A stretch of 64,000 bases of DNA, from NCBI GenBank assembly GCA_022494885.1, contig JAGVSM010000922.1:496001-560000 (forward strand), read 5' to 3'. The translations under genes were made by a program, and so were the position numbers. Source of the DNA: Micrasema longulum (lineage: Eukaryota; Arthropoda; Insecta; Trichoptera; Brachycentridae). Within the stretch, counting starts at the first letter, position 1, and every line of letters begins with the position of its first letter. A model generated the notes under the pieces. That model searched no databases and had not been told where the DNA came from. It was given only the letters and a program-made list of their open reading frames with translations. This document shows positions 37,678-63,212 of this stretch, one piece after another.

Positions 37678-40600
37678 GTAGCAATTTTTGAGTTGTTGGA
37701 CAAAAACAAAATCTCAACAAACCTGGTTTGGGCTTATCGATGCCCTGGAACTCTTATAACAACACAACATGTTTTGACCGCTGCTTCTTGTTGCCAGAAA
37801 AGGTAAAATTCTTTTTTACATTTTATATACATAGTTTAGTTCAAATATTTGGTAAAACAAACATTTAACATGCAGTTTACTTGGAAAATATATTCATAAT
37901 TTCAAACTCACTGTGTCATATTATGTGTTAAAAATATTAGATCTAAGAATTATACATCAGGAAATAATCTGTGCATATTTTTAAGAATCATCATCATCAT
38001 TCCTTTTCCACACCTAATGGTGCATGGGGAACTCCATTGTTACTTGGTACACTAATTGCAGCGTATCTCGATCATTTTTACACTTCATGTGCCAGTCCAG
38101 GAACTATGAAATACACTAGGTGTAAAAACAACCCCTTAAACAAATATTTAATGTCCCGTGTGGGAAATTGAACCTAAGACCTCTTGCATGACAGGCAAAC
38201 GCATTAACCACTACACCGTGAGGCGGGCAAAGAATAAAGGATATTTTGTAAATCATAAAACTTTGAATCATGCATAGTTTTTTAATTAAAAAACTGAAGA
38301 CGTATGTAATACATAAGATTATCAGAAATAAAATGTATAACAATAAAAGAAACATGTACCTAACACACTTGTGCTAACCTAAAAATAATTATAAGAATAT
38401 TTATTATTCAGGGTCTGTCAAAATAAAACAGATTTAGAGGGATCTGGTGTTTTGCTCTTGAGGTAACACCGTAGACTTAAAATATACATTGGGTAACATA
38501 TTATTAAACTGCAGTACTGAAATAGAATAAAGTGACCTTATCATGACCAATCATAAAACGAGCCAATAGTAATGTGGTGTTGCCAACTGACGAATCAGTT
38601 GTAGTTCCAACTTCAAACAATTGCAGTCCCAACTCCAAACAGTTGTAGTCCAAATCCAAATAATTGTAGTCTCAACTCAAAGTAAAATTGTCCCAGCTAT
38701 ACAGTGGAATTTCTTTTTCATAATTTCTGTTTCATCTCTCTTTTGGAATTTACGTTTCATATAGTGGCATGTATTTAATTGTGTTCTTTACTTTTAGTAA
38801 AAGTGGTGCTACTGTTGATGCATTTGATAATACACAAATTATTATCAGAGCTGGGGTGACGAATCTAAACATATTGAAAGCTGAACGTATATCTAAAAGT
38901 ATTAAAATTCACCCTAACTACATTGAAAAAATAGATGCAAATCTTTGTATAATAGAGGTAACTTCGATTGAAGAGATGTTAGTCATTTTTATGTGTTTAA
39001 AAAATGTATCCAAAAAAATGACACCTTTCAGTATATTAATAGTGCAATAGTGCCTTGCGCACACATTTGACAAATAATTACACAATTATAAAAAAATAAC
39101 ACCTTTTAAAAATATTTTTCAACTATTTGCATTTTTTATTTGTTCCTATTGTCTCTTTTAAGCATGTATCAAAAGAGACAAATTCATATTCAATAAGAGT
39201 TGTACAATATTTTTAAACTTTTTTGATTGAACGTTCTAATTCATTATGGTTTTTATTTCAGCTGAATGTACCTTTTATGAAAACGAGATATGTTAATACA
39301 GTAAAACTGTCTACAAAGCCATTCAAAAATATTTCATGCAATGTTGCATCATATCATTATGACCAACCGAACAGGGTAAATAAAATAAATCAAAATTAAA
39401 AACAACTAATTAACACTTGTGTAGATAACACGTTTTAAACTATTGCTCTATCACCCTTCACACTTAAAAAAATTAATTTTTGTCTCATTTAAAATACCTA
39501 TGGCGTTGCCAATGATAAAAACAAGTATATTTTCAATTTTTACTGTTTCTACTTTGACAGACTCAAAAAATGTGCAGGTAGTTTAAATTTTAAAATGTGA
39601 CCTTATGAAGATTATTACTTCTTAGCCCCTTGACCTGCAGCATAAGACTGATCATCTTACTTTCTTGTACCAAAAAAATGATCAAGGTACTTTGTGATTG
39701 GTGAACCAATGCTGTGCCCTATGTACCATTAGGTGCGGAAAGGGACTGATGATGATTTATAATATGGCACAGAAACGGGAAATGCAACTTTTTTTTTTCA
39801 GTTATAAATTAATAAGGGCCCATGAAAAAATGTCAATTTCAAAATTATAAGCATAAAAAATATTTTGATTTATAATTTTAAAATCCCGCAAATATGGTTC
39901 ATTGCTTTAGCCACCCCCCTAATATGTCATGATTCGGTTTAATTTTGAACTTAGTTAACTGTTTAAATTTAAATAAAACATCGCCACAAATCTTGACGTC
40001 ACAATTGTCAAAGCCAAACATGTCATGTTTTCGTGGAGACGTATTTTTCAACAACTTTATTCAAAAAATTATGAATGAAAACATTTTTCCCCAATGTCCA
40101 TACTTATAGATTTTGAAATAGCAATGAAATTTTCTGAATCCATTTCACATATTTTTATCGGTATTTGTAGTATGTGATATTTCCCTATTGCCATGTTAAC
40201 CTTTTTTTTAAACGAAAATGTTGGTATGCCTTACACTAGTCAGAACAGCTTGTACTGTTTATGGTATCTCTTATTTTTTTTAATTATTTTTTTTATTTCA
40301 TTGGAAAGCCAACAGACATTTATACATTTACAAGAATCAATTATACCATAAATACATATCATAAAGTCCAATAAAAGGCTTCCACATAATATTGTTACTG
40401 TAAATGTTGTCACATAAAAATTATACATATCATAAAATAACTAATCATACAAAACTTATAATATTACTAGAAATGTAAATGTAATACATATTATTCAAAA
40501 TATATCTACTTTTGAATATTGGTCACACAGTTGCACATTATAATAAATAATACAACTATAGTTGACCATCCAGTGTTCATTTATTATGTGCCTACATACA

Positions 40601-42329
40601 GAACTGCACATAACCTGCATAATATAGGCTGCGGATTCAAGGCGCAACATCATAACTTGAATTATTTTCCAGATGTTCATGTGAAATTCGTAATCTGTCT
40701 AAAATAATCTTACAACCGACTTTAAAAAATAGCATTATTTGTCCGGTAGTGTAAAGTTCTGGAAATAATGTCCTTATATTATTTTTTTGTATTTTATTTA
40801 TAGACTATGAATTTCCCTTATGAGACTCCTACGTATTCTCAAATTGTTACTGAACTTTATATGCCCCCAAAAAATTATTGTACTGTGGCACTTCCTAAGT
40901 TAAATCTGGAAAGACACATTTGTGGATTTGGAGATCCCATGTTCTTTCATGTAAGCAAATTCAACTTTTTATTTTTATATACTGTGATTTTGGTTTGGAT
41001 TTTTTTTTTTAATGCATACATTAAGTAGACCCCTTTTAAATGTGTATTTTATACAACTGAAAGGACATTTACTTGATACCAATTAAATTTCTTAAATATT
41101 CATGCCCATTCAGATGCACAAAGAGTTCAGTTTTATACATTCCACAAACAGAAACTTTTGTGAGATTTTTTGTTTGTTGTTATTTGGGTAATATTTTAGC
41201 CTGTTTAATATTATTTTTATTAATTTTTTTATGTATAGTTAATCAGAAACCGTATTATTTTTATAAGTGTTTTATATATGCAAAAAAATATATAAGATGA
41301 CGGTCAAATATGGCGCAAAACCATAATGCTTTTACAAAACAAAACAACTACATATATGTATTAAAATATAAGTCTAATCTTTTGGTTGAATTATATACTT
41401 CTGATTTATCTTTTTCATATTAATAATGACAACCTCCGTGGTGTAATAGTTCAGACGCTTGACTCACACACGAAAAGTTCCAAATTCGATTCCCATTGAG
41501 AACACATTTTTTTCCTCATGCCTGGATGTTCTATGCTGTGATTCCCCACTATAAATGGGTCTCTTGGCCTGTTTTGATAAAATTTTATAAAAAATAGTTT
41601 ACTGATGCCAATTTTTTTGTTAATTTTCATTTTGGCTTGAATTAAAAACCAAATATAAAAATATATTGGTAAATAAAACCCCTATAGATTTCCTAGTTTG
41701 TTGAGGCTAATCTAACCTAACCTGAACGACATTAATCACTATTTTATTGCTGACAGACTGTGGCAATTTTATTAGTCTGATGAAAAAGTTTAAAAAATAG
41801 TAATTCTGAAACTTCAACTAATTGTTCTGTTGGCAACACCAAATTATAATTGTACTGCTTCATCTGACAGTCATAACATTTTTTTCAGAGCCTACTGTTT
41901 ATAAGTATAAGAACACTAATGCCTCAAATTCATTTCTATAATTTTTGACGAACTCAACCGTATGCAACTCCGCAATCTGCTGAGTTATGGGCACGAGTTA
42001 TGACTGGCCCAACTATCCAACCAAATTTGATCACCTGTCCCTTTGCTACTAACATGGACAGGAACTATCAACTGTTATTTCATTTTGTAATTATTTTCCA
42101 GAATGACGTTGGTGCCCCATTGATCACTGATGATGGAGATTGGATAGTTTCTGGAATAGCTTCATATAATATTACTTCTGATGCGGGCGGGATTTACTAC
42201 ATATTTACTGATATATTTAGTTATCTAGATTGGTTTAAGACATTTATTCCAACAAGCAGCAATGCTAAACATCCTGTTGATAATAAATTAATTGTTCTTT
42301 TTTCACTCGTACTTCTGACGATTACATGA
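37678..42329 (+). CDS. SPH-B: catalytically dead serine-protease homologue with C-terminal hydrophobic tail
   Basis: Five exons join in phase: 37678-37802, 38798-38957, 39262-39375, 40804-40950 and 42102-42329 (stop), 257 residues plus an unresolved N-terminus (candidates at 35515 and 35790). The chymotrypsin fold is recognisable: RCPGTLITTQHVLTAASCC (usual CGG...TAAHC), IIIRAGVTNLN, IKIHPNYIE, 'FPYETPTYSQIV', ICGFGDPMFF, then NDVGAPL and WIVSGIASY. All three catalytic residues are replaced: His57 by Ser, Asp102 by Asn (DANLCII), Ser195 by Val (NDVGAPL for GDSGGPL). Cys191 and Cys220 are also gone. After SYLDWFKTFIP the chain ends SSNAKHPVDNK plus 12 hydrophobic residues, as in a GPI-anchor signal. 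It is therefore probably a membrane-tethered, non-enzymatic protein; its binding partner is unknown. A possible AATAAA lies at 42485. Confidence 0.88.
37985..38229 (-). repeat. tRNA-derived SINE with (GAT)n tail
   Basis: The minus strand starts 'gcccgcctcacggtgtagtgg', has a B-box-like AGGTTCAATTTCCCA, and ends '...ccattaggtgtggaaaaggaatgatgatgatg'. It lies in intron 3 of SPH-B. The tail words recur at 39700, 49440, 49600, 55250, 55735 and 58430. Confidence 0.7.
39690..39760 (+). repeat. SINE 3' end with (GAT) tail
   Basis: 'accaatgctgtgccctatgtaccattaggtgcgg' followed by 'gactgatgatgat', the 3' end of the (GAT)-tailed SINE family, in an intron of SPH-B. Confidence 0.55.
39806..40192. repeat. 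Dispersed ~400-bp repeat, copy 2 of 2
   Basis: Same block order as 25790-26200, from 'aataagggcccatgaaaa' to 'tatttttatcggtatttgtagtatg...ccctattg'. It lies in the intron between SPH-B exons 39262-39375 and 40804-40950. Confidence 0.6.
41430..41580 (+). repeat. tRNA-derived SINE
   Basis: 'acctccgtggtgtaatagttcagacgcttgac' and a B-box-like AAATTCGATTCCCATTG followed by 'agaacacatttttt' match the SINE at 54730-54901 and 8175-8331 in opposite orientation. It lies in the last intron of SPH-B. Confidence 0.7.
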
Positions 42330-42619
42330 TTTGTATAAAGATTAAGGATAGATACCACGTCATATATTTATTTTACCTTCAAAACATTTCAAGTGTTAAA
42401 TGAACCTGTAAAATGTTATTTTCTCTTTTTAATATACTGCTCCTACATAAGAGCCATTTATTAGAATCATAATTATTTTTAAAAAATAAAAAAAACATTT
42501 ATATGAACATATTTTTGAATATTATTTTGTTATACCTCTCTTTGATTATTCGTGTTCAAATGTATTACATAAATAATTGAACATATTTTATTTATTTAAA
42601 ATTGACCACATAAACCATT

Positions 42620-43790
42620 ACCTTTAATCAATGGATTTTAAATAGCTATCTCTCTTATGAATTTACAGTTAGATCGGGGGTGCCAAAAGGTTTTCATCTT
42701 GGTCCATTTCTCTTTGTACTATTTATTAACTATCTACCTACACAATTTTCTGATGTAGAGTTTTTGCTATATGCTGATGATTTGAAGCTATTTAGAGAAA
42801 TGAATTTCTCAAATTACATACTTCACCTTCAAGAAAACATCGATATACTTCTTCAGGGGTGCAAATCCAACCATTTGTTTTTAAATGTAAACAAATCTTT
42901 TCACATGTCTCATTCCAACATCATACTCAATTAATGACACTTTCATAATTATGAATGCATAATTATGAAAGTGTCTGTCTCACAAATTAAAGATCTTGGG
43001 GTAACTTTGGATGAAAAGCTTACCTTTACGCACTATAGAATGACAATTGCTAATAAGGCAGATGCAGATGCTGGGCTTCATTATCAGGGATACGACAAAT
43101 TTCAGTAGCATCGTTTCTTCAAGTGTTCTGGTCCGATCACAACTGGAATAAGCTTCATCAGTCTGGAGCCCTTTGTACAATTGTGACTCTTTTAACTTTG
43201 AAAGACTTCAGAGGAAGTTTTTACGCTACATACAATTCAAAAAGGATAAACCTATAAATGAAATTTGCTATCAAACTTTGATGTCTGAGTTGAGGTTACC
43301 ATTGCTCTCCGCCAGAAGGACAATTGCTTACCTCACTCTAATCTTCAAAGTGATACGCACCATAATAGATTGCCCAAAATTACTGTCCCTGAGAAACTTT
43401 CGTGTACCCACAAGGACCACCAGACTCCAACACATGTTCCAGTGTGAGTACAATAGGATGAACTTCACCCACCATTTTCCCCTGGCACGGGTCCACAGAA
43501 CAGCCAATAATTATGCTGAGCTGTTGGACTTGCTCCACACCACTCCTGCCGCTATCAAATCAGATATCCTATCCACCTAATGGCTATCCCCTCAATTCCC
43601 CCTATTTAATGTGTTTCTCCACTCATCTTCACTTTATTTCCTTTTTCTTTTTTCTTAGAATGAATTACATGTTAAATGTAATAGCTGTGAGTTTATTTTT
43701 GTTATTTCCACAATATTTTATATGTACTTTTAACTGTATATTGTAAGAGCTCTCTGGGCGTTTATTAAATAAATAAATTAATGTGGCACA
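42620..43790 (+). mobile_element. Decayed LINE with reverse transcriptase fragment
   Basis: Pieces in order are SGVPKGFHLGPFLFVLFINY, LLYADDLKLFREM (YADD box), then 'IKDLGVTLDEKLTFTHY' and, after stops, ERLQRKFLRYIQFKKDKPIN and RLPLLSARRTIAYLTLIFKV. It ends in TTATTAAATAAATAAATTA near 43765-43782. Frameshifts and in-frame stops show that it is dead. It fills the interval between the convergent genes SPH-B and SPH-C. Confidence 0.8.
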
Positions 43791-44960: not shown

Positions 44961-45165
44961 ATATATAACTTGCAAGTTTCTATCAAGTCCCCTATCTTCC
45001 ATCGTTCTTCCAATGATGTAAGTCCTAGTGCTTTTAATCTATAGTGGTAAGGCATCCTTTTGAGTATTTTGGGGATTTTTATTGTGTGTTTACTTGGTTC
45101 ACTGACAGCGTTCACTTCACAACATAGGGTTAGTAAATATTCAAATGCACAGTACCCTTTCATAA

Positions 45166-48100
45166 TCAAATTCTCATAATAGTAAAAATTAAGAGAGAGA
45201 CAAACATAAGAAGTTTATTGGCAACTATGTAAGTCGCATCGCTTTCAGGAATACGGGCATTTATCCATTCCCAATAACTAAATACATCTGTAAATATAAA
45301 GAATGTTTTAGTTGTTGTAGATTTGGCAGGTCCCGCTTGCGGCGAACTTGATCCTTTCTCTTTAAACGGAAGATGCAACATCTCGGAAGCTATTCCACCG
45401 AGCTTATAATCTGAGCCTTCGGCCGCAATGAAAGTTAGTGGCGCGCCAATGTCATGCTACAAATTAAACAAATTCGTGCTTTCAAAAAACATATTGGGTA
45501 AAATTAATATTCAAAACACTAACTTTGTGGTTTTCTGATTTTCTGTTTCAAATAATTTAACTATCGTCCTTAAAATATAGCTTGATTAGAATGACAGTTG
45601 TCAGCAAAAGTGACGACATAACTTTCTTGTTATGTAGAGTAGAGTACTTTACGGCTAGGAAATGAACTATTGGAGATGATGGACCAATTTATATACCTGG
45701 GTAGTATTATTACAAAGTTTGTAGACCCAGATGTGGAGGTCAAATGCAGGATCGAAATGGCCCGTGACACATTCAACAAAATTAGAACAATATTCTGCAA
45801 TGATAAATTTTACTTAAAACTTAAGTAGAGAATGGTGAAGTGCGATATTTGGTCTATTCTGTTGTATGGCTCAGAAACCTGGACTTTGAAAGCACAGAAT
45901 ATGAACCGGTCGCAGGCATTCGAGATGTGGCTTCACAGAAGAATGCTTTGTATACCATGGTCAGATTTGGTCAGCAATGTAAGGGTCCTGGGAAGAACTA
46001 ATTACAACAGACAATTTTTTAAATGTTTAAAGGTCCGTAATACTTCCTAACTGAGTCACATCCTGCGTGGAGACAACTATAAATTCCTCCAAGATTAAGG
46101 GGGAACGTGGACCTAGAAGAAGGCAAATGTCTTGGCTGCGCAACATAAGAGACTGGACAGGAATAAGGTGTGTGGAGGAGTTGTTCTGGGCAATGCAAGA
46201 CAGAGGCCTTTTAAGAAGTAATTCTCAACGTCGGGGACATCTGATAGGGCACTAGAAGAAGAAGAACTTAAACAAGAGTCCTTTATGAAATTTTTTTAAT
46301 GATTCAAATATCATTTAATCCAATACCTAATACCTACCCTAGTGATGGGTAACCTATGACACACCAAGACGTTTTGGGTGAAACGCATTGTTTACGGACA
46401 ATCATCGCCCAAGAACAAAGGATGCCATAGCGATAGTTCAAGGATCGGCAATCGATGCAAGCTACTTTTTATCCCAGAAACACATCTCATTCCATTCTTA
46501 TTGTTAAAGGACAAAACTATGTGTTTTTTCCTAATGCCACCTGTCTATTATTTATAAGACTCACTCTGAAAAAAAACATGTTTCCAAATCCGCACAGTCG
46601 TTTATCCAAGGATGTGAAATTGGCTATTTCCAGGCATTCATTTTTGTGCTTCATATTTATTGATGTTACCATTTCTGTAAAGGAAGGAGTCTCGTAGGGG
46701 TAATAAGCTGACTGTAAAAACAAATAATATTTATGTGCACTTATGTAACAAATTATGAACATGATAATAATAATAAAAATAAAAATAATCATAGTTTATT
46801 AACAACAATAACAATTACTTTATCTACTACATACACACTTAGGCAATAGATTTCTCTGGATCATGTCTAGTCCGCCTAACTAGGTACAACCTGTTTTAAG
46901 GCAGACATTTTTATGCAAAAATAAACAAAAACATTACTACCTACTAGTTAATTTACTACACAGTTATACAATATTAATTTATTAGGAATGTATTTTGAGT
47001 AAATTTTCCGATTTTTCTCGATCTAAACCCAGTAACCAATTTTTTACAAATTTGTCAAATTGAATCCGGGTCATGGTTTTGCTATCTTTGGGTAACATAT
47101 TGAATATTTTGGGGCCCAGAAACCTGAATTTTTTTTGCCCGAATTCAGAGTTTGTGATAGACCCCATGACCCATCCTCTAATAATAATATAATACATCTG
47201 TTGCCGCCAAATAGTTAAATCAGCCACTCAATTGGGTGGTAAAGCTGTTTATTTTGATAATTTGTGGGCATTTGTGCCGGCATTCGATTAAATGGCTAGG
47301 CCATTCATTGAATAAATTAAAATAGCATGTTGGCTGGTTGAAAGCTAGCCCTTTTGAAATGGCTCACCCAAAAATCGCCGAGTTTTAGGTTAGGATAGGT
47401 TGGATTTAGTTAAATAAAAATATTTTTTTTTTATTAAACTTTACTCAACATCTTAACCTTACCTAAATTCACACAACAAAATAAATTTAAAAATAAAACA
47501 ATTATTTTTGTTTTATTGAAATCAATGAGGCTAAGCGGTGTTCAGCTCTTTCATTAAATGTTGCTTTCAACATTTTGGCTAAGCTTTCGTTAGCCATTAA
47601 ATTGAATGCCAATATTTAATGAAAAGTCTAGGTGTCCAATTGAGTGGCTGATTTAATTATTTGGCGGCGACGTAACCAAGCAATACAAGCAGTACAATAA
47701 AAAATCTAACAAAAAAATAAATAATTAAGGAGCTTGTTAATTCTGGGATTAAAACAGTGCACTATATTATTAAACATCATTGTTACAAGACAAAAACTAT
47801 ATTTATTGCGTATCTGGTATTTAAAAAGGCATAAAAACTAGATTGTAAGAAAACATTAAGAAAAAATAAACATTTACTTACTCTGTTTATAAAGTTAAAA
47901 TGATATGAAGTTACATTACAAGAATGATTCAAAACTGAAAACCCTGGCAAGTTTATTGTATTTATGAACATTGTTTTCATAAAGGGGACAGCTAGCTAAA
48001 ATAAATAACACATAATTTAGTCAAACAATATAATGAAAGCGCCCCCCCCCTTTCCGAAACTGTTCATAAAGTCTATTCTTCAGTTTCGCACATTCACCAT

Positions 48101-51100: not shown

Positions 51101-54100
51101 TATATATATTGAGAGAATGTCACATAGCTTTAATGTTTGCATAAAGAAACACATGAGATCTTTAAATAACAATAATTTTTTAGAGTTATCCTATTATCTT
51201 GTAAATTCCAATCACGATTTTAATAAGTATACATTCAAATACTAAAAATGGACTTAAATGAAATAACATGAAGCTGTTTCACATTGAAAAATCTATTAAA
51301 AATAATACTCCCCCCCTAATAAACAGTCAAATATCTTTTCAATATAGCCTAGTTTTCAATTTAAAAATTAACTCTTCTTCCCAAACCCCCCACCCCCACC
51401 AATTCACCAGCTTCATAAATATTATTAAGGTAATTTCTGAAAATATATAATTAGATTAAAGTCAGGTGTATTTGGATTAAAAACACATCAGTTTGACATA
51501 AAATACTAGACTAAAATTGAGCTTTAAAAATTGTAAACAAAATTGCATTGGTGAACATATGTACAAGACGATGTCATAACATTAACCAAAAAAACTGACA
51601 TACATAAATATAATTCTAGACAACAACACTGCCACATTAAAAAAGCAAGGACAAACACAGGACAATAAAAATACTAACCAATGGATTTAAACCTTACAAT
51701 GACTCCCTTATCTTGCTACTTACAAAATTACATTAGAGACAAATTACAAAACAACCTAAAAAGCACATTATGACATCAACCAGACGAGACATAACAGGAG
51801 GTTTATTTTAACTATAAATAATCAAAAAATATTGTACGTTAATGATGAAATTATGCTTACTTTCCAAGACAACAAGAGGCAGAAGTCAAAACATATCGGG
51901 CTGTCAGCAGAGACCCGGGGCATTGGTAACCCCAAATGACGTTTAAGGGAGCCGTATCCGGATCCACACGTTGAAAAAGGGCTACCTAAATTTTGAAAAG
52001 TTTTTTAGACATTTTGTTACATTCCTCGCAAAATAATAGTAAGAATAATTAAAAAATTTGTGAAAAGTTAGATTGACCCTTCATTCAAAACATGAATTAA
52101 AAAAATAAATTTAAAAATATACTTCACATTTTTTTATTTATTTATGAAACATATAATGCAAAAATTACATATTATACTCCCAGGAGTTATTAGAAACTCA
52201 TTTGGGACCGTACATAAGAAAAAACTTTTTTTTTTGAAAATACATAATATCATACAAATTAATACATCCGAAATAAAAAGAAAACATTATTGTATAAGAA
52301 ACATAAAACACCATCTTATATAAACTACATTAATAATTATTAATATCAAAAAGATGTAGGAAATATTTTTTAATTGCGACACTTCTGGATTTTTTATTCA
52401 GTTTTTCGTGTCTTAGCTCATCAGGCAGTTTATTATATTCGGAATGGCCAATATTTTCCAAGGACCTACTGCCAAACTTTGTTGAGCGAAACTTAGACAC
52501 ATGAAGATTCCTTGAATAATGCGTATTGTAATTATGAATATTATGACCAAATGTGTGTTGATAGAATTCACAAAAACGTGTTCTGGCGGAACATTAAAAA
52601 TAAGTTTTTTGAATTATAAACGCAATATGCTGTGACTCAAAAACATTTTATGTGCGTGCGTATCATGTTCCGCACAGCAATGGCGCTGTAATGGCAAAAC
52701 AGCATATGTGTAAGTTGTCCTGGTAGAATGCAGTATTCTGTCACTACCTACTGAAGTTTCTTTTTTTGCGCTTACAGTATTGTGTCATCATCAATTTCTT
52801 GGGATGTAACAATAGAAAAGTTCATATGATGTAACTAGACGAATGGAATTGATTGTCCAAAATGATGCATCTACAGTTACCGCATGCATAACCATAATAC
52901 AGGCGCACTGTTTTTGGCATAAAACTAATAATAACTACACATGTTATGATACAATAGCAATATTAAGAATAACAATCCAAAATAAGAAATATCAATAAAT
53001 ACAATTAATAATATATTATATTGATACACAATGTGTTTAATGTGTATTTCGGGCATGTTTCAAAATAATGTTAAATGTTTCCTTCGGCACGTGTCACCCA
53101 GAACATTATTTTTATTATTTTTAATGTAAAAAATAAATACATAAACTATACAACAATAAATAAATTAATTGTTCACAATATGTAGTTACAAACATAATCC
53201 AATTCACAAAATATTAGAATCATTAAAATTAATCGAAAATAAGACAAATACATAATTGTGACAATAATTCATTATTTTATAATTTGTGTTTTAGTGTGCT
53301 TATTGGAAGCTTGGAGCTATTGCCATTGGAGCTAATAAAAAAAATTATTAACTTTCAGTGGATAAATTGATTCATTATACTAGTCTTTATTATGAGGAAG
53401 AGAGGAGTGTTTATAGAAGGGATAGAAAAGTTGGTAATTAATAAGAACAAAGGAATAATGAGACAAATATCTCAACGCAGATGAAATTAAAATACTTTAT
53501 AGAAGGGATGGAAAAGTTGATGAATAATAGACGCAAAAGTAACATATTGTGATTACAACTTACCAAGTATCTTGCAGAATTTTTCTTAGTTTGGTTTAGC
53601 ACATTCCATTTATAAAAATTTGAAGCACTGGATTCACCTTAAATTATAAGTAAAACCAATAGACAATGTTTAAGGTGAATCCATAAACAGACACATGCAT
53701 CGTTTTGCAAATATTGCATTTCCATGAACAATTCTAAATAAACAGATAGGAAATCAAAATACACATGCAAACATTCATGTTAGAATAAGATGTACCTACA
53801 TATTTTCTTTTTATATTTTTAACTCATTGCCATAGCTATACACTGGCAGACAGCTTAATAACAAAGCAGTATTTTGTTCAGATACTTGTACAAAACTTGT
53901 TTTTTCCACATTCGCTCCTAAGTGAAGCATGTGAACATATGCATAAGGCTCCAAGAGACCATATCGCTAGCTTGCACTCTCCCCTCCTCCCAAGTCAATC
54001 CCGCATCCCTTAGTTCCACCGAAAGATCATCATCGACGGTCTTCCAGGACGGTGGGAGCCCGTAAGTGTGAAGGGCTCCTGAGCCATCCGCTGCACGTGT

Positions 54101-55062
54101 CCAAGGAAGGTCCACCGCCGCACCCTTAAAACTCTCATTATAAGAAGCTGTTGCATCAGTTCTCGGACTCCAATATCAGTTATGAAATCTTGTCCTAATA
54201 TTCTTCTCATACACCTACTCTCAAACTCAGAAGTTTAGAGTTGTAGGTTTTAGTAATGTGCCAGGATTTATACCCATATAGGAGTACGGCATTATACAAA
54301 GTCAAATAATCGGCATTTCGTTTTGTCTGAATATAAACTAGAGTTTCAGATAGCGCACACTGTGTCAAAAGTTGCTCCAGCAATATCTAGGCGAATTGCG
54401 AATTCTTTGAGCATGCCACCATACTCAGTTAAGTGAAATTCCAAGTATTTAAAACTCACTTACAAAAAAGGTTTTTTTTATGTTTTAAAAAAAATATTCC
54501 GACGCTTTCTCTAGATACCTATATGGATAATTGTTTTAATAAAAACCATCGCCATCTGTGATCATGATAAAAGTCCATTAGAGAATAGAGAAAAAGAAGG
54601 CAATTACCCACTAATAGAAATGCCAAAGAGTTTGCGCTAGTAATGTGTGTACATAGAATTAGAATAGTCTATAATTCTATGTGTGTGTATTTAACGTGTT
54701 ATTGCTAATTTAAAAAAAAAAAATATTACATTTTTTTTGCACCACAACAGGCCAGGAGGCCTAATTACAGTGGTGAATTACATCACAGAGCACCCAGGCT
54801 TGAGAAAAATCACATTTTAATTTTTGTGTTCTCACCGGGAATCGAACCCGGAACCTTCCGTGCGTGAATCAAGCGTCTTGACCACTACACCACGGAGGCC
54901 GCCACTAATCACTCATCACCCATACAGTAAAATTATTTATACGATAAATTTATCGACCCATTGGCATAATTACAGACCTTGTCGTCTCTGTCGTGGGAAA
55001 CAAAATACACATTGTATCAAAATTATTAGAAAAACCAAATAAGATAATAATCTCATTTTCAT
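45166..55062 (-). CDS. SPH-C: catalytically dead serine-protease homologue with C-terminal hydrophobic tail
   Basis: Seven exons join in phase: 54978-55062 (ATG), 53574-53647, 51861-51985, 49219-49375, 47882-47995, 46565-46711 and 45166-45456, giving 330 residues. Residues 1-22 are a signal peptide (hydrophobic core LLSYLVFLIILIQCVF), followed at once by RQRR (24-27), a furin-type site. There is no IVGG activation site; the equivalent junction reads SARYL|VALF. Triad positions: His57 is Ser (residue about 90, LTSASCC), Asp102 is kept (about 142, DADLCLI), Ser195 is Ile (about 237, HDIGAPL). The tail after SYWEWINARIP is SDATYIVANK plus a hydrophobic stretch, GPI-signal-like. Intron 4 uses a GC donor (GAG|GCAGGT) and contains a repeat of exon-5 starts. 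Introns 3, 4 and 6 carry antisense or sense LINE fragments. Closest relative in the window is SPH-D. Confidence 0.92.
45660..46262 (+). mobile_element. RTE-like LINE C-terminal fragment
   Basis: Frames with few breaks read FIYLGSIITKF.DPDVEVKC, then SILLYGSETWTLKAQNMNRS, FEMWLHRRMLCIPWSDLV and, in other frames, GERGPRRRQMSWLRNIRDW. These are the C-terminal signatures of an RTE-like non-LTR element. It lies in intron 6 of SPH-C on the opposite strand. Confidence 0.75.
46980..47202 (-). mobile_element. LINE C-terminal fragment
   Basis: The minus-strand frame from 47227 ends GQKKFRFLGPKIFNMLPKDS, then DKFVKNWLLG, a jockey/CR1-like C-terminus. Its 5' side abuts the TIR element at 47203, which probably inserted into it. 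It lies in intron 5 of SPH-C. Confidence 0.65.
47203..47668. mobile_element. MITE with GCCGCCAAATA termini
   Basis: Left GCCGCCAAATAGTTAAATCA and right TGATTTAATTATTTGGCGGC are imperfect inverted ends, and the match continues with CAGCCACTCAATTG. The core includes 'tggctaggccattcattgaa' and 'aggttaggataggttgg'. A diverged internal part of the same family lies at 55468-55665, in the centre of the SPH-C/SPH-D inverted duplication. No ORF. Confidence 0.75.
48391..48600 (-). repeat. 60-bp tandem repeat made of SPH-C exon-5 splice acceptors
   Basis: About 3.5 units with spacing 60, 60 and 61. On the minus strand each unit holds a polypyrimidine/AG block (e.g. TTCTATATTTCAG) followed by CTGGCAATCCCCTTTATG or a variant. 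The true exon 5 (from 47995 downwards) starts CTAGCTGTCCCCTTTATG, and the intron before it also shares 'gtttgactaaat...'. The units are therefore partial copies of the intron 4/exon 5 junction, each a potential decoy 3' splice site, without the rest of the exon or a donor. Confidence 0.85.
48720..49190 (-). mobile_element. LINE C-terminal fragment (RTE-like)
   Basis: Minus-strand text with breaks includes 'LPILTYGTETMTLPE', 'GWLISKWARHIARISDDRWG' and 'VLEWRPRSATNEMVK', a widespread insect non-LTR C-terminus. A 'catcatcatcatcac' stretch marks its 3' end. It lies in intron 4 of SPH-C. Confidence 0.7.
49415..49660. repeat. Inverted pair of (GAT)-tailed SINE 3' ends
   Basis: 'aaatcaccatcatttccctatccacaccaggtgg' (minus tail) and, 150 bases on, 'aatgcagagcccttggcaccattaggtgcgg' (plus tail). 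Both belong to the SINE family seen at 37985 and 58430. They lie in intron 3 of SPH-C. Confidence 0.5.
49860..50560 (-). mobile_element. RTE-like LINE fragment
   Basis: The minus strand carries, with frameshifts, '...KFKYLGSILTE', 'CEMQNSGSKSCF' and 'RLELEGEHYEQVGSF' shadows, then 'CRNGTLARVIANVGDT'. The part 49900-50040 resembles the minus copy of the 'RRRQMSWLRN' region found in plus orientation at 46100. It lies in intron 3 of SPH-C. Confidence 0.55.
50600..51860. other. Intron 3 of SPH-C, no further feature
   Basis: AT-rich, with a LINE-like plus-strand 3' tail near 50870-50960 ('tataaagactgtatgatttc' then 'attaataaattaataaat'). No exon or structured repeat could be supported. Confidence 0.4.
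52125..52620 (-). mobile_element. LINE C-terminal fragment, related to the 425-1960 LINE
   Basis: The minus strand reads 'FRSTKFGSRSLENIGHSEYN' and KLPDELRHEKLN, matching 'STKFGTRSLQYIGFKEFNKLP' at the end of the first LINE. The 3' end is near 52125-52145 (ATTTATTTATG). It lies in intron 2 of SPH-C. Confidence 0.75.
53895..54480 (-). mobile_element. RTE-like LINE fragment (left-arm copy)
   Basis: The minus-strand frame reads ILGQDFITDIGVRELMQQ, then RVRRWTFLGHVQRMAQE and RPGRPSMMIF. It is the inverted-duplicate partner of the fragment at 56560-57620, so the LINE was already in intron 1 before the duplication. A related but independent copy is at 6745-7460. Confidence 0.75.
54730..54901 (-). 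repeat. tRNA-derived SINE, present only in the left arm
   Basis: The minus strand starts 'ggcctccgtggtgtagtggt', with B-box GGGTTCGATTCCCGG, and ends in an A/T-rich tail. It interrupts 'attgctaat|cac', which is continuous in the right arm near 56121-56130 ('gtgattagcaat'). CTAAT on both sides looks like the target duplication. Confidence 0.8.
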
Positions 55063-55344
55063 ATAAAATATATTTTCAAATATTTATCAAAACATGTCAA
55101 GTAATATTATGTAACCAAAACAGTTTTAAATTAAGAGTTTTACCTCGTGTTGTCAACAACTAATTTAATTCAAACATTTAAGGGCACCAAAGTACCTACT
55201 TATTTTTTTTCATTTATTGAAATAATAAATACATTTTTCATTCATAATCACCATCATTCCATCTGCACCCAATGCTGCATAGAGCATTGCATTGTTACAT
55301 AAAATGCAGCATAGGAACCTCATTCATTTTTTACATGTTGGTGA

Positions 55345-55440
55345 GGAACACGACCACCTCGTAGCCTAACAGTCAGCGCATTAGCCAGCCATGTTAGAGG
55401 TCTCAGATTCGATTCCCGACATGGTTGACAAAAAATATTT
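55345..55440 (+). repeat. tRNA-like SINE head at the centre of the palindrome
   Basis: 'ccacctcgtagcctaacagtcagcgcattagcc' and B-box-like CAGATTCGATTCCCGAC about 35 bases apart. Lack of a matching acceptor stem speaks against a tRNA gene. Confidence 0.45.
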
Positions 55441-55467
55441 GTTTGAAATGCTGTGTTTTGCTTCCAA

Positions 55468-55665
55468 ATAGATCAATCGGTTACTTAATTGGACGGCTAT
55501 TCATTTAATTATGGCATTCAATTGAATGGCCCTAGCCATTGAATGAATTAAGATAGCTTAACGTTCAACGTGTTTGCTGGTTAAAAGCAAGACCTTTGGA
55601 AACGGCCCAACTAAAAGTCGCCCGGTTAGAATTAGTATAGGTTGAATTAAGTTATTAAGTTAAAC
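55468..55665. mobile_element. MITE remnant at the palindrome centre
   Basis: 'cattcaattgaatggccctagccattgaatgaattaagatag' and 'gctggttaaaagcaagacc' match the core of the GCCGCC-ended element at 47203-47668. The ends are worn. Confidence 0.55.
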
Positions 55666-55963
55666 TATGGGGTGGTTATGTTACTTGCGTTCATGTAACA
55701 AATAAGTGAGACACCTATGCTGCATCTTATGTAACAGTGCAATTCCCTATGCACCATAAAGTGCAGATGGAATGATGGTGATGATGATTAAAAAACATAT
55801 TTTTTAATTTTAACAAATAAAAAAAAAAAACAGGTACTTTGGTGCTTTTAAAGTTAGTTACAATTAGTTACTGGCAACACGAGGAAACACTCTTAATTCA
55901 AAATTGTTTTGGTTACATTACATTACTTGACATGTTTTGAAATTTTAAAAATATATATTTTCT

Positions 55964-58900
55964 ATGAAAATGGGATTATTATCTTATTTGATTATTCTAA
56001 TAATTTTGATACAATGTGTATTTTGTTTCCATCGACAGAGACGACAAGGTCTGTAATGATGCCAATGGGTTAATGAGTTTTCCATTTCAACAATTCTAAC
56101 TTATGAATGATGAGTGATTAGCAATGACACATTATTAAATACGCACGTTACTAGATCGAAGTCTAGTACATTTCTATTAGTGAATTATTGCCTTTGGACT
56201 TTTATCATGATCGCATTGCACGTGACGCTCGCAAAAAATACTTTCATTATTAGCAACTGAAAAGCAAAACAGATATATCATTTCAATCGTAAACACAATC
56301 CGATTTTTATTCAAGTACATGTAATGAGTGGCCCATAGAGATTAGGAATACTGGGTTTATCACATTGTTTCGTGTGAAACTATGGTTTTCATTAAAACAA
56401 TTATCTACATGGGTAGCTAGAGCGTCATCAGAAAGCGTCTGAAAAGATTGACAAATATACAAAAAAAACATTTTTGTATAAATAAACGTAATACTATTGA
56501 AATGTTTAGGAACAGTTTGTTGTTAAATTTTATTTCCATAAGTTACTTTAATAATTAGGATTTCACATAACTGAGGATGGTGACATGCCCAAAGAGTACG
56601 CAACCCAGCTAGGAATTGTTGGACCAACTTTTAACACAATGTGTACTCAATATGTATCTTTTTTGGATGATCCCGTGTAAGTTGGATTTGTTTCGAGGTT
56701 TCGGCTACCACTGCAGGAGCCATCTTCAAGTCATTGAGTTAACGGAGTGTTATGTAGAAAAAATATGTGTTTATGTACTAGTAATTTGTACCGTGTCGCA
56801 TTCAGTAGCAGGCACTTTCCGTGTAATTTTTGTAGTGTGTAGTCCTGGAAAACCATATTGAGTTTTATTTCAGCCCGTTGTCTTTATTGATGTTATTTGG
56901 GTTTCTGTGTATTTCAATTGCCTCTTTTATTATTCGTGCACTGTTATTTCTAGGTTTATGCAAAATCCTTGCTTTGAAGGCGAAAAGATGTCCCGAGTCT
57001 ATTGTGTTCCGCTATTGCTGATTTTTGTTCCGCTATTGTATTATTGATTAGTGTTTTCATTATTGATTAGTGTTCCGCTATTGCAGGTAGCCGAAACGTC
57101 GGAACGAAGCCAACTTACACGGGATACTCGGACAAAACGAAATTTTGATTATTTGACTATTTTATAATGCTGGTACTCAAATCCTGACACCTTACTAAAA
57201 CATAAAACCCCAAACTTCTGAGTTTGGGAGTAAGTACGTGAGGAAAACAAAAATATTAGGCATAAAGTGATTCGATTTCATAACTAACATTAAAGTCAGA
57301 GAACTGATGCAGCAGTCTCCTATAATAAAATGTGCTTACCATTGTTTGAATGGACTGTATAAGTCTGTCAATAAACAAATAATAATAGAGTTTTAAGTGT
57401 GTGGCGGTGGACCTTGCTTGGACACGTTCTGCGGATGGCTCAGGAGCCCTTCACACCTACGGACTCCCGCCGTCCTGGAAGACCGTCAGTGTCGATCTTT
57501 CGGGGGAACTAAGGGACGCGGGATTGACGTGGGAGAAGGGGAAATGCAAGCTAGCGATAGGGTCTCTTTGAGACGCTTACTGATGTACACATGCTCCACT
57601 TAGGAGCGGATGTGGAATAAAATATTTTTTTTGCAAAACTATCCAGATAAAATACATTGCATTATTTAAATAATGAAGCTGTCTGCAGTGTTATGCTATG
57701 GCAATGAGTTAGAAATATGAAATAAGAAAATATGTAGGTACATCTCTTTCAAACATGAATGATTGCAGTGTATTGTGATTTGCTATCTCTTTATTCAAAA
57801 TTGTTCATGGCAGCACAATATTTGCAAAACATGCTATTGAGGATACACATGTCTATTTTTTATACATCAGTGTAAGGCAGTGTTAGAATGATCAAAAAAT
57901 AAATTAGATTTTTTACATTGCCTAATGATTTACTTATATTTTAAGATCAACCCAGTGATGAAAATTTTTATAAATGGAATGTACTAAACCAAACTTCAAA
58001 AGCTTCTGCAAGATACTTGGTAAGTTGTGATCATAACACATTACTTTTAAAAATGTCTTAAATTCTTTGTTGGTTCAGTTTTACTCAATACTACTTCAGT
58101 GACGTTTATTTATTTTTGAAAATATGAACTTATGGTTCCATACATTGTATGTGTAATTAGAAAGACAATGGCATTTCAATTCTCGGGCCTTCATTCTCCA
58201 ATGGATCTTTGTTATGATAAGACAGAACGCTATGCATAAAAATGACATTGTGTGTACTATACTTGAGGTCCTTGATTCGATTCTGTGCAGGGTGGATGTG
58301 AAATATTGGTTTTGAAAGTGGTTATGCACTGCGACATTTTATTTTTCATGGGCGTTAGACTGATTATCCTACCTTCCATGTATCAAAAAGGATCCAGGAT
58401 ACATTGAAATTGGAGTTCCAATGCAGTTCCTTATGCATCACTGGGTGTGGATGGACAAACGATAATGATGATGATTTTTTTATGTCTGTTTTCCTTCAAG
58501 GTAGGAGTGTATGAAATAATGGACAAACAGCAACAGGCTAGGAAACAGGGAGTCTGGGGTTACCGTTGTCCGGGAGCTCTGATCACTTGTCGTTATGCTC
58601 TGACCGCTGTACCTTGCTGCATAGGAAAGTAAGCTGTTTTTTTTATTGTCTAATTATTTAAAACTACCCATAAGGGTATATGTATACATATTTTAAGGTC
58701 TGGTCTTGTTATGTCTCATCTGGTTAGAGTTGTCTTCGTGTGTTTTTTCAGGTTAATTTTAAATTTGTCTTCAGTGTAGTTTTTCAAGTAGTAAGGTAAG
58801 TCATTGTAGTGTTTAAGTCCATTGTATACTATTTTCGTCATTGCTTTTTGAATGGGGAAGTGTTGTTGTCTGGTATTATATTTGTGTAAGTCAGCACTTT

Positions 58901-61900
58901 TAGTTCATGTCATTGTCTCAGTGCCATTTTGTGTACAATTTTTATTGTCTCAATTATTTTATGTTAAACTGTACAGTTCAGTCGTAGGGGTCAGGTAGGG
59001 TTAGTTTAATTATTTTATTTTCCTCTGTATCCTTGTTAAATTAGCTGATTGTGCAATGGAGCCATTTAAAGTCTCCTACAAGTTTATTTCTTTAACATAC
59101 AATTTGGGTGTTATCTTAAAGAGTGGAACTGCATACTTAACTCGTATTCTCAATTTTAGTGACATGTCCTCCTAACCTAAATTGCCACAGATCGATCCCT
59201 CCTATGTATAATGTCGTAACCCACAAGTTGTCAATTTGGAGTTTAATTTTTTTGTCCATTATATTTTTAGTTCCAACAAAGAAAATAATATATTTTGCAA
59301 TTAGGTATGGCTTTTTTTTTGGGAAGAACATTTTCGTATCTCATATTTTTTAGAAAGTATACCCCCTTGCAAATGAATCCATGCGATATTTTTCACAGGA
59401 TGAAAGAGTTCATCGGAAGCGGTGTAAGTATCAGTTATGATAATGTTCTCTGGACTAGATAGAAATTTGCCGTGTCCATTGTTTTTTTATGTTTTTAAAT
59501 AGCATTTTTTATATGGATCCTGCTTTTGCGAAAAATAAAAGAATTAAGCTAACTAGCGTAAAAAAATTGATTAGGCCTTAGAAATTCAATCTAAAATACG
59601 TAAAACACAAACTCCAACAACAGATTCAGCATAATAATAAACAAAACCCATATTTGCATGAAACACAGCAAAATCCTTGATAAAACAAACCAGTTGATCA
59701 TATAAAATTGCATTTTGTGGGTTACAAAATTACACGTAGGTGTTGAGATGTTGATGTTCACTAACAAAGGGGTGTACTTATGTGGGAATACAATTTTCAA
59801 AAATGTATCGAATTTAATATTATTTTAGTATTATCGAAAATCCTGTAAAAAGAAATAAATGGGTAGAAATTATAAGGAATTTAAGGAAAGAATCTGATTG
59901 AGATCCACAAAAAACAAATGCTGATTGTAAACATTCAAAAACAAACTTTTTTTATATACAAAAAACAACACCTTTCCATTTTTTTGTAAATGCATTCTCT
60001 TCGAATGCAACCCTGGTAGATCGATGAATAAAACATTTATGCTCCTAGCTTCTTTTTTACATATTCGATTGAAGATTTTAATATCTACGAACACGCACAG
60101 CGCAAAGATCTATATTTCTCTGAAAACGGAACGTAAATCGGTTAAGCCATTTAGAAGGAGTTCAGTGACATCACATGTACAGAGGAATTATATATATAAA
60201 GATATATTCACGGTTTTTCAGGGCCAGACTGCGAAACTTCAGAGGAACATTGCTTATGGTAAGCTTTTAAAAAAATCCTAATAAAAATTTTCCGAAGTCA
60301 TTTAAAAAAAAAACTTTTTTCAGATCTCAAAACAGATTCAGACTAGCATCCCTTCCGTAAACCCCTACCCCTCCCCGACAAAAAAAAGTTTCAATAAAAA
60401 CATATTTGACCAACAAAGCGATACACACCAGACGCGGACAAGGGAAGCGGCTGGGTAGGAGAGGAGCAGGGGTTTGTGGAGGGACTGCTTGTCCGAGAAA
60501 TAAAGGATTTACTTCATTTTGAGATTACAATTTTTTTAGGATTTTTTTTAAAGCTTACCATGAGGAATCCTCTGAAGTTTCGCAGTCTGGGCCTGAAAAA
60601 CCGTGTAAATGTATGTGGGTGGGTAAATGAAAAAATTTTAATAGCATGCTGAGGGTGTATAAATAAATAAACGATTATCTCTGTTATAGACAAATCGATA
60701 GTGAAGACGAGTATCAATATGCACCGACTGATTTAATAATAAGAGGGGGGGTTTCGAATCTCAACGCTTTGGGACCTGAAAGGCGCCTGAGAGATATTAG
60801 TATTCATCCCAAATATAATCATTACATTCATGATGTTTGCCTTCTGGAGGTAATTTAATCTTTAGGTTTTTTTTTAAAACAAAAAATAAACATTTGCATT
60901 CTTATGATTTACCCGAATATTTCAATTTGAGGCCATTTTCAACGAGTTGTAAATAACTCACTACTAGAAAATGGGAACCAAGTCTGAGGTTCGAACCTCA
61001 GACCTCTGATCCGTGGGTCCGCAACACTTACCACAGGACCACAACCCGATTCTAGTTGAAATGTACCGAAGTTAAAATAAATGCTTACTTTAAATAATAA
61101 CTGCCACTTTAAAGGCCATTCATTAAAATTTAACACTACCTACTTCACATTCAACCCCAGAAAGAACTTCCTGACAAACGGAGTTGTGGAGCGATCGAAT
61201 AGGCTTCCTGGGAGAGTGATAGGTGCACATTTTGTTTATGCGTTAAAAAACCGCCTGGACGATCACATATTTTTTTTATTTCTCTTATTGTATGTTATGT
61301 GTATTGTTTTTTTTGTATATTATATTGTATGCATATATAAAACACGGTGCATTAGATAGATGTACAGGTAAATGTCGTTTCTATATTTATTGAGAATATG
61401 CCATTTCCTTAAATTCTTTATTTTTTGTAAATTTCACCCACATTGCTCTTTAATTTCACATAAATCAACCGATGGAAGAATTGAATAATTGCGGATGTTT
61501 AAACAAAGGCAGAATAGTGAATGTTGCACAGTGTGTAAAGTGGCCACTTAAACCTGACAATGACAGTGTAGTTATTAGTACTATTGTTGTTGCAAATATA
61601 GAAATCCACTGGTAACCATATATTCAAGTTAATGGCTGGTGGATTTGAATACTAGATGGATCAAAAAGTTTGGAAAAATCCGAAGAGATGGCGTCAGTTG
61701 CAGTAATGTGAACTAATCGTAAAAAGCTTTATCCTTCATTAGACGTCTGTCGAAATATCAGCCATTTTTGTTTACGCATTTACAGGGTTACGGCAGTGAG
61801 AGGCAACCAACCTCCTTATTTTTTTAATGGAAAAATCTGAGTTTCGTTTTCTAATTAAACATTATTATTTACGAAAGAAAACCGAGACTTTGGTCTACGG

Positions 61901-63212
61901 TTTGGCTTTGGCCAAACTAGATGAGTTTTATCCTGACTCTGCACTATGGATGAAGATGATTCAAAAGTGGTTTTCTGACTTTCGTTGTGGCCTTAGGTTT
62001 CGATGAATAAACGCCTCTATATGACACTGAGCTGAACTAAAATAAAAACGAAGGCTGAGTACATGTTATAAATTTTAATCGTAGGTGAAACTTTTCAGTT
62101 TTGTTTTGTATACACCACTGTAATTGTTAATTTTATGGTGGAAAAATGAACAAGTGTCGCCAGCTTGAGAGCCGAGTTAATTTGTGTTTGGAAGATTTTT
62201 TGACAATAATTTTGTTATTAAATGTAACTAAAAAATATTTATGTATTAATGTTTTCTTTTACAAAAACTGTGCTTATAATTTCAGCTAGATTCCCCGTTT
62301 ATGAGGACAAATGTTGTAAACATAGTACACATACCTAAAGCTAAACCTGTTTTGACTGCAGGTACTTTTTATATTGCTACATTTCACTTGAATGAGCTAG
62401 AAAGAGTAAGTAAAAGTTTCATAATAAGACATTTCATAGCAGTTGCATATTGAGAATGTGCCTAAGCATTACGCAAAATGCAAGGTTGGTCAACAGATGG
62501 CGCTGTCAAAATGTTATAAAGCGAGTACGCGAGAGAGATCGCTCTTTTCCACGCTGACAGTCTTACTCAGTCTTAAATTTTATGCGATGCTTAGGTACAA
62601 ATCTGCGAATAGAGTTTAAGACTTGAATACAAGATATTTTATGAACTTTTCGAAGTTGTTTCGAGGCTAATACAGAAATAATATTTTGTCATTTGTTTGC
62701 AGGATTTTTATGCTCTTTTTGAGACTCCCACTTTTACAGAAATATTTGTTAAAGTAATGATAAATACTTCTGAACAATGTGTGGCAATAGCCCCGGACGC
62801 AATAATAGACAATCACTCAATTTGCGCATTAGGATTTGATTATTTTTACAAAGTAAGTTTTTTTTCTTCCAATGAATTACTTAAATTTGTCGACAACATA
62901 AATATTAAATATTTATTTGTGAAATCATCTATTCTTTATTTCATTGTCTTGCAGAAAACTGATATTGGTGCACCATTGATCACGGAGAACCCGAATAAAA
63001 TCACCGAGTTGATCATTGTTGGAATAGCTTCTCGCACATTTAATTATTCAGAAAATGGTAAAAACCTTACTGGATACCTTTTTGCAAACGTTTACAAGGA
63101 AACGCAATGGATACTTTCACAAATACCAAAAAATAATGCAAAATTTCCAATTGCCAATACCCTCTTTAATTTATTATCATTCATGGTTCTGACTCTGATA
63201 TGGGTAGGTTAA
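55964..63212 (+). CDS. SPH-D: catalytically dead serine-protease homologue with C-terminal hydrophobic tail
   Basis: Seven exons join in phase: 55964-56048 (ATG), 57946-58019, 58501-58628, 60690-60849, 62286-62405, 62703-62852 and 62955-63212, giving 324 residues. Signal peptide 1-22 (LLSYLIILIILIQCVFCF), then RQRR at 24-27. Fold motifs: YRCPGALITCRYALTAVPCC, LIIRGGVSNLNALG, ISIHPKYNHY, 'FETPTFTEIF', ICALGFDYFY, then TDIGAPL. His57 is replaced by Pro (residue about 91), Asp102 is kept (about 144, HDVCLL), Ser195 is replaced by Ile (about 243). The C-terminus after WILSQIP is NNAKFPIAN plus a hydrophobic end, as in SPH-B and SPH-C. The first intron holds the arm's LINE and a MITE, intron 2 a SINE ending about 25 bases before exon 3, and intron 3 a foldback MITE. 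ATTAAA at 63285 may be the poly(A) signal. Function unknown; probably secreted and membrane-anchored. Confidence 0.92.
56560..57620 (+). mobile_element. RTE-like LINE fragment (right-arm copy), split by a MITE
   Basis: Parts 56560-56665 ('ataactgaggatggtgacatgcc...') and 57128-57620 ('gtgtggcggtggaccttgcttgg') are the inverted partners of 54480-53895. The MITE at 56668-57127 separates them. Stops and frameshifts are present. Confidence 0.75.
56668..57127. mobile_element. MITE with imperfect ~45-bp TIRs, only in the right arm
   Basis: Left GATCCCGTGTAAGTTGGATT... 'gaggtttcggctaccactgcag' pairs with right 'ctattgcaggtagccgaaac' ... CCAACTTACACGGGAT. The left arm has the uninterrupted LINE text at the matching place ('attcagacaaaacgaaat'). 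Relatives: the hairpin fragment at 22780-22935. Confidence 0.75.
58235..58478 (+). repeat. (GAT)-tailed SINE just upstream of SPH-D exon 3
   Basis: B-box-like CCTTGATTCGATTCTGTG near 58270, body 'ggagttccaatgcagttcc', and 3' end 'ggtgtggatggacaaacgataatgatgatgat'. The tail ends about 22 bases before the 3' splice site at 58500. Confidence 0.65.
58640..60208. other. Intron 3 of SPH-D, first part, nothing recognised
   Basis: AT-rich sequence with no convincing exon, repeat pair or RNA gene. Short open frames on both strands at 59137-59353 overlap each other and carry no motif. Confidence 0.4.
60209..60605. mobile_element. Foldback MITE with ~75-bp TIRs
   Basis: CACGGTTTTTCAGGGCCAGA continuing through 'gcgaaacttcagaggaac' and 'atggtaagctttt' pairs with the inverse at 60535-60605 ('aaagcttaccatgagg', 'gaagtttcgcagtctggg', 'ctgaaaaaccgtg'). 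It lies in intron 3 of SPH-D, about 85 bases before exon 4. Confidence 0.8.
60945..61050 (-). repeat. tRNA-like SINE head
   Basis: The minus strand reads 'ggttgtggtcctgtggtaag' and an 8-bp palindrome around TTCGAA ('tctgaggttcgaacctcaga'). The T-arm is too long for a normal tRNA, so a SINE is preferred. It lies in intron 4 of SPH-D. Confidence 0.45.
61090..61370 (+). mobile_element. LINE C-terminal fragment
   Basis: The frame NPRKNFLTNGVVERSNRLPG, then LKNRLDDHIFF, matches the 'FF.NR.V..WN.LP.....A.S...FK..LD' end of CR1/jockey-like polyproteins. It lies in intron 4 of SPH-D. Confidence 0.65.
61640..62010 (+). pseudogene. Mariner transposase N-terminal fragment
   Basis: The frame from 61828 reads MEKSEFRFLIKHYYLRKKTE, then 'KLDEFYPDSALWMKMIQKWF' and SDFRCG, the N-terminal helix-turn-helix region of mariner transposases. 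'gatggatcaaaaagtttgg' at 61655 may be the left TIR. The catalytic half is missing. It lies in intron 4 of SPH-D. Confidence 0.75.
62448..62598. repeat. Short TIR-bounded element
   Basis: 'gtgcctaagcattacgcaaaat' and 'ttttatgcgatgcttaggtac' are imperfect inverted ends 150 bases apart, around a GC-richer core. Possible tiny MITE in intron 5 of SPH-D. Confidence 0.45.

Follow-up and report, generated by a model that had tools for sequence, protein, structure and literature searches.

Three gene models for serine protease homologs (SPHs), named SPH-B, SPH-C and SPH-D, lie in a stretch of 64,000 nucleotides from Micrasema longulum, corresponding to bases 496001-560000 of contig C881 (JAGVSM010000922.1) in an assembly of 584 Mb and 5184 contigs. 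This whole stretch is referred to as the window, and negative coordinates are positions to the left of it. SPH-B and SPH-D are on the forward strand and SPH-C is on the reverse strand, and the reading frames are intact in all three. The Pfam profile Trypsin was found above its cut-off in each of them (E values of 4.4e-12, 4.3e-08 and 5.1e-07 for B, C and D), using models that were then without exon 1 and, for B, also without exon 2. Plasma kallikrein was a profile match across the S1 domain, with a best E value of 1.7e-10. The predicted proteins are assigned to the S1A (chymotrypsin/trypsin) family by descent, and they correspond to insect SPHs as defined in PMC10036332, i.e., an S1 domain with at least one substituted triad residue (this and the other papers cited are used in excerpt). 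Neither the complete catalytic triad nor the R/K-IVGG activation site of an active S1A protease is found in the predicted proteins. The triad positions 57/102/195 read S/N/V in B, S/D/I in C and P/D/I in D. The initial annotation had already reported the loss of His57 (S, S, P) and Ser195 (V, I, I) in all three and of Asp102 in B alone, and residue alignment bears this out, the last change being D102N.

Organization of the three genes

Intron phases are 1-0-2-0-0-0 at all junctions seen in the three genes, which bears out the initial proposal that they are shared. The seven-exon structure that was proposed with them is present in SPH-C and SPH-D, but in SPH-B six exons were found (35945 to 42329) and exon 1 is represented by a weak candidate at 35515. 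In general, exon 2 stands in place of the usual IVGG activation exon, exon 3 carries a CPG motif and the former His57, exon 4 carries position 102, and exon 7 encodes the former Ser195 as well as a hydrophobic C-terminal tail. All splice junctions in the models are GT-AG, with the donor of SPH-C exon 4 as the sole exception; it had been read as GT and is GC (GAG/gcaggt).

SPH-B had been thought to start at 37678, which is actually its third exon. Its exon 2 (35945-36012, RTVAYANWTTINQLSIRKINYL) was recognized from the acceptor ttttccag, the phases 1 and 0, and the alignment with exon 2 of C and D, with which it has W...NQ...YL in common. It is followed by exon 3 (37678-37802; CPG...TAASCC, H57S), exon 4 (38798-38957; D102N, Cys104), exon 5 (39262-39375), exon 6 (40804-40950) and exon 7 (42102-42329; NDVGAPL, S195V, hydrophobic tail). 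In the second intron of this model, at 36480-36840, low-complexity frames arise from a simple repeat, with Tyr/Ile/His/Thr runs on one strand and Cys/Val/Tyr on the other.

SPH-C, on the reverse strand, consists of exon 1 (54978-55062; signal-peptide-like MKMRLLSYLVFLIILIQCVFCFPRQRRQ with RQRR), exon 2 (53564-53637; no IVGG), exon 3 (51861-51985; CPG...TSASCC, H57S), exon 4 (49219-49375; D102 kept, Cys104, GC donor), exon 5 (47882-47995), exon 6 (46565-46711) and exon 7 (45166-45456; HDIGAPL, S195I, hydrophobic tail). Two tandem fragments at 48390-48594, which are 97.6% identical over 83 bases, resemble the start of SPH-C exon 5 including its acceptor and sit upstream of the real exon 5. SPH-D comprises exon 1 (55964-56048; signal-peptide-like, with RQRR), exon 2 (57946-58019; no IVGG), exon 3 (58501-58628; CPG...TAVPCC, H57P), exon 4 (60690-60849; D102 kept, Cys104), exon 5 (62286-62405), exon 6 (62703-62852) and exon 7 (62955-63212; TDIGAPL, S195I, hydrophobic tail). 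The signal-peptide-like segments of C and D, which were judged by eye, end in FPRQRRQ or FHRQRRQ. Across the three SPH models there are four, five and five N-glycosylation sequons, and poly(A)-like signals are found within 160 bases of the stop codon of each model.

Loss of the catalytic apparatus

The residues of the three SPHs were compared with those of 20 other S1 proteins, i.e., two intact-triad paralogs on the same contig (A and A2) and an intact-triad trypsin on another contig (L021), all described below, and 17 proteins hand-picked out of 120 listed matches to the L021 protein. Besides H57 and S195, eight residues that are conserved in all 20 are replaced in B, C and D, namely G43, G193, G197, G216, Y228, W141, G142 and C191. 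The same applies to C220 and G140, kept by 19 of the 20, and to D189 and G226, kept by 18. As a result of these changes, B, C and D have neither the GWG motif nor the Cys191-Cys220 pair. G43 has become P, G197 A, Y228 F and W141-G142 Y/F-H, while residues 189-190-191 read M/F-F/Y-F/K and G193 is replaced by N, H or T. A, L021 and A2 have the R/K-IVGG activation site, which reads IVNG in A2, and B, C and D lack it. Still present in the three SPHs are D194, G196, P198, S214, Cys42-Cys58 and Cys168-Cys182. Moreover, they have gained features in common. Cys59 and Cys104 occur in each of B, C and D but not in any of the 20 other proteins, and the 37-loop and 145-loop carry shared insertions as well. 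Since both new cysteines stand close to positions 57 and 102, our guess is that they may pair with each other.

The altered motifs around the catalytic positions had been put forward as family patterns, and they are indeed shared, although their wording had to be adjusted. D194 is kept at the 195 site, which therefore reads [NHT]-D-[VI]-G-A-P-L and not [ND]-[VI]-G-A-P-L, and the TSASCC of SPH-C changes the His-site pattern from CPG...TA[AV][SP]CC to T-[AS]-[AV]-[SP]-C-C.

The persistence of D102 in C and D, and of D194 in all three, could be taken to mean that the proteins are still proteases that use another nucleophile. However, every copy lacks H57, S195, G193 and the IVGG N-terminus, which makes this reading next to negligible. 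A decoy role has been proposed for midgut homologs, and the SPHs might likewise absorb plant or dietary protease inhibitors in the gut. This would agree with SerPH219 of Tenebrio, a homolog with an S-D-V triad that is highly expressed in the larval gut (PMC11172050). Its S1 subsite is G-I-S, however, whereas in B, C and D the inhibitor-contact residues of the pocket and oxyanion hole at 189, 190 and 193 are now M/F, F/Y and N/H/T. With the pocket and Ser195 gone, the SPHs are less likely to act as decoys for canonical inhibitors or serpins, and we regard the decoy reading as improbable.

Descent and selective constraint

Paralogs A (5445 to -9645) and A2 (-18530 to -37488) are located on the minus strand of C881, to the left of the window and partly inside it. 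Both have intact triads, the intron phases of B, C and D, and the usual motifs, i.e., K-IVGG or K-IVNG, TAGHC or TAAHC, NDIA, GDSGGP and D189. Exon 2 of paralog A (K-IVGG) is at 5354-5445 and its exon 3 (CGG...TAGHC) at 3235-3341, both on the minus strand. The remaining exons, 4-7, are located beyond the left edge of the window and reach -9645, and exon 1 was not found. For exon 1 of A2 there is a candidate at -15042. L021 (4538-5380 of contig C3718) is an uninterrupted frame of 280 residues that encodes an intact-triad trypsin with a hydrophobic tail, and it may have originated as a retrocopy of one of the cluster genes. Queries of the genome with C (301 amino acids, without exon 1), B and D each gave at least 15 matches, of which 14 were in C881 and one was on C3718, these counts being lower bounds. 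In a genome-wide S1 profile search 150 of 349 candidate stretches were scored. Contigs C5054 and C2983 had many S1 exon matches each and apparently hold large trypsin clusters that are separate from the one in C881.

In a maximum likelihood tree (23 sequences, 222 columns) the three SPHs formed a single clade (bootstrap 100) with a stem length of 1.54 substitutions per site, and B grouped with C at 96. Because the three make one clade, inactivation most simply, and probably, predates the duplications.

C and D are placed head to head, with their start codons 901 bases apart, in a palindrome that takes in exons 1-2 and the upstream region of each gene. Its left arm extends over 53535-55370 and its right arm over 55659-58048. 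Two parts of the left arm match the right arm inverted, 54905-55370 with 82% identity over 469 columns and 53535-54141 with 76% over 672 columns. Nucleotide identity between C and D is 89% in exons 1-2 and 56% in exons 3-7. These values are most simply explained if the 5' ends were copied or converted, and thus homogenized, long after the bodies of the genes had diverged.

The initial annotation had attributed the intact frames to selection instead of decay, a view against which a dN/dS ratio near 1 between the copies would speak. Such a ratio was not obtained. Codon models gave values of omega of 0.174 for B-C, 0.225 for B-D and 0.296 for C-D, the last taking in the homogenized exons, and omega = 1 was rejected for each pair (2dlnL of 60.1, 46.6 and 36.9). 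The values are rough because dS, at 2.82, 2.79 and 1.59, is near saturation. Additionally, neutral evolution was simulated over exons 3-7 by placing the same number of nucleotide differences neutrally, in 1000 runs per pair. The observed amino-acid identities for B-C, B-D and C-D are 0.463, 0.364 and 0.347, compared to neutral means of 0.32, 0.26 and 0.27, and they were reached in 0 of 1000 runs for every pair (0 of 3000 in all). A stop codon appeared in 999 of the 1000 runs for B-C and in all 1000 for both B-D and C-D. These results support the view that the frames of B, C and D are under selection and are not decaying.

Pseudogenes in slow decay, i.e., duplicated trypsins that lost their function and have not yet collected stops, might still be suspected from the GC donor in C, from the failure to find exon 1 of B with confidence, and from transposon fragments in the introns and flanks. 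Besides the omega values and the simulations, this is contradicted by the GT-AG borders of all other junctions, by the new cysteines that the copies have in common, and by the poly(A)-like signals close to every stop, and we consider decay very unlikely. Assembly error is also an unlikely cause of the replacements, since three separate loci have them in common.

Proposed role and comparison with known systems

In a glycosylphosphatidylinositol (GPI) signal, small residues and a short spacer precede a hydrophobic end, and there is no cytoplasmic segment. The tails of B, C and D (NAKHPVDNKLIVLFSLVLLTIT, DATYIVANKLLMFVSLLIFTIMRI and NAKFPIANTLFNLLSFMVLTLIWVG) show this pattern. The best hydropathy over 14 residues is 2.36 in B, 2.32 in C and 2.12 in D, values reached by 5, 10 and 19 of 2000 shuffles. 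A hydrophobic extension after the S1 domain is also present in A (2.59) and L021 (2.14). In Tenebrio, clade A2 contains putative GPI-anchored trypsins together with a single homolog, SerPH43 (PMC11172050). A surface-displayed, non-catalytic S1 domain is favoured because of the GPI-pattern tails and of these reported proteins. We infer a non-enzymatic role for B, C and D, whose catalytic His and Ser, activation site and substrate pocket are lost; with a probability of roughly 0.55, they are secreted, GPI-anchored proteins of the cell surface that would bind a partner without cutting it.

Alternatively, the SPHs could be soluble secreted cofactors of an immune cascade, comparable to PPAF-II or Manduca SPH1/2, as roles in prophenoloxidase activation have been described for insect homologs (PMC10036332). 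However, the hydrophobic tail argues for membrane attachment, no R/K-IVGG activation cleavage is present, and no clip domain was found in Pfam at E values up to 10, where C and D matched Trypsin alone and B matched Trypsin and one sub-threshold DUF (full-length D, at E values up to 0.01, again matched Trypsin only). This makes a soluble cofactor an unlikely interpretation.

Several points weigh against the cell-surface reading. The GPI assignment was made from the tail pattern and its hydropathy; such tails occur elsewhere, as 6 of 121 fetched S1 proteins reach a tail hydropathy of 1.8, and A2 is tailless (-0.41). The nearest sequences to the SPH clade are A2 (60) and L021 (75), a weak placement. 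The near saturation of dS, the survival of D102 in two copies and of D194 in all, the non-canonical GC donor of C and the first exon of B, which is not established from its weak candidate, belong here as well.

If the SPHs are indeed displayed at the cell surface, a GPI-tailed trypsin like A would have been inactivated once and then duplicated, with D splitting off first and B and C separating later. A GPI anchor would take the place of the hydrophobic tail, and in C and D a furin-like enzyme may cleave at the RQRR behind the signal peptide, a step that would stand in for zymogen activation. A canonical inhibitor or serpin would probably not be held at the old site, because of the changes at 189-191 and the loss of Ser195, so that binding might take place through other surfaces, for example the 37- and 145-loops, which are enlarged. 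C and D could be co-expressed from their homogenized head-to-head palindrome. A further-reaching proposal, which we advance tentatively, is that of a lineage-specific family for cell-surface recognition. It might have arisen by wholesale conversion of a GPI-anchored trypsin before duplication, when it would have lost the activation peptide, the pocket, the oxyanion hole and Cys191-Cys220 and acquired a new Cys59-Cys104 pair, while the palindromic promoter region would keep two copies under one control.

Many SPHs are near-complete proteases with one or two catalytic changes, in which lost catalysis and gained function are hard to separate. B, C and D stand beside intact-triad genes of the same exon structure and form with them a natural before-and-after pair that shows which surfaces were kept or gained once catalysis was lost. 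Provided that the tail is a GPI signal, the GPI-anchored trypsins of insects, a little-studied group, would gain a branch without catalysis.

The window contains other elements as well. Between paralog A and SPH-B, at 22962-25069 on the minus strand, an FKBP-type isomerase fragment (E value of 1.2e-07) and a TPR exon (1e-09) likely belong to one gene, which we take to be FKBP6/shutdown-like. Two long reverse-transcriptase frames (Pfam RVT_1) and a Tc3-like transposase are found at 335-1837 (+), 31019-32089 (-) and 20534-21388 (+). Elsewhere in the genome, an exon for an ultraspiracle (USP) ligand domain had its best PDB matches in chains 1r1k and 1g2n, USP of the moth Heliothis (75.7 and 75.6 bits, the following match having 56.4). 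In the alignment 35 of 54 residues agree, a lower share than would be expected among higher moths, which gives a lead to a moth-caddisfly lineage; an HNF4-like and a Rev-erb-like receptor exon were uninformative about this placement.

A profile built from the three SPHs, with exon 1 missing from C and D and exons 1-2 from B, gave a single match among 2441 candidates from 5.8 billion proteins, an unnamed S1 protein of 403 amino acids with 25% identity. Full-length C yielded 803 candidates, none of which matched at E values up to 10. As a control, the L021 protein matched 7529 proteins, and since many of the 120 listed are from insects, insect proteins are represented in the database. Thus no close relative of the three was found among the 5.8 billion proteins, by a search that depends on shared 5-residue words and could miss relatives about as divergent as the three are among themselves. 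Scans of viral and prokaryote contigs gave pattern matches at 65 and 26 stretches, of which none was confirmed. No match was obtained to the Lepidopteran chorion family, for which the control was equally silent, nor to Rfam. No description of the signature was found among the listed titles and abstract openings of open-access papers or in the excerpts, those of PMC12844481 and PMC8867212 included, and the combination of a missing activation site, rebuilt pocket, new cysteines, tail, cluster and palindromic pair was not met in these literature and protein searches. The initial annotation, which recognized no described family with this signature, is supported in so far as close relatives are concerned; however, SPHs as a class, S195V/I included, are already known in insects (PMC11172050). 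In Ostrinia, 43 of 177 serine protease-related genes encode SPHs (PMC10036332), and among 125 homologs of Tenebrio molitor S195 is replaced by V in nine and by I in seven (PMC11172050). B, C and D appear to be a new and unusually thorough variant of the insect SPH.

PPAF-II and Manduca SPH1/2 carry a clip domain; B, C and D, in contrast, lack both this domain and the activation cleavage and have a tail. What they share with these proteins is a non-catalytic insect S1 domain (PMC10036332). The non-clip SPHs of Tenebrio likewise combine an S1 domain with triad replacements, including S195V/I. As far as these are described in the excerpts, B, C and D are set apart by the additional absence of the activation motif, pocket, oxyanion glycine and Cys191-Cys220, and by the Cys59/Cys104 and loop insertions they share (PMC11172050). 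A single S1 domain with a C-terminal hydrophobic extension is found in the GPI-type proteins of Tenebrio clade A2 as well as in vertebrate prostasin and testisin. The Tenebrio clade has one homolog, SerPH43, known here by description, among active members, whereas three clustered homologs form a clade of their own in M. longulum (PMC11172050). Lastly, the SMIPP-S of the scabies mite, which are homologs of the mite group 3 allergens and some of which inhibit host complement, likewise are S1 paralogs that arose by duplication, carry triad mutations and exist alongside active relatives. According to the excerpts, the substrate-binding sites stayed intact in most of the mutant copies of the dog mite, in contrast to the rebuilt pocket of B, C and D (PMC4930577).

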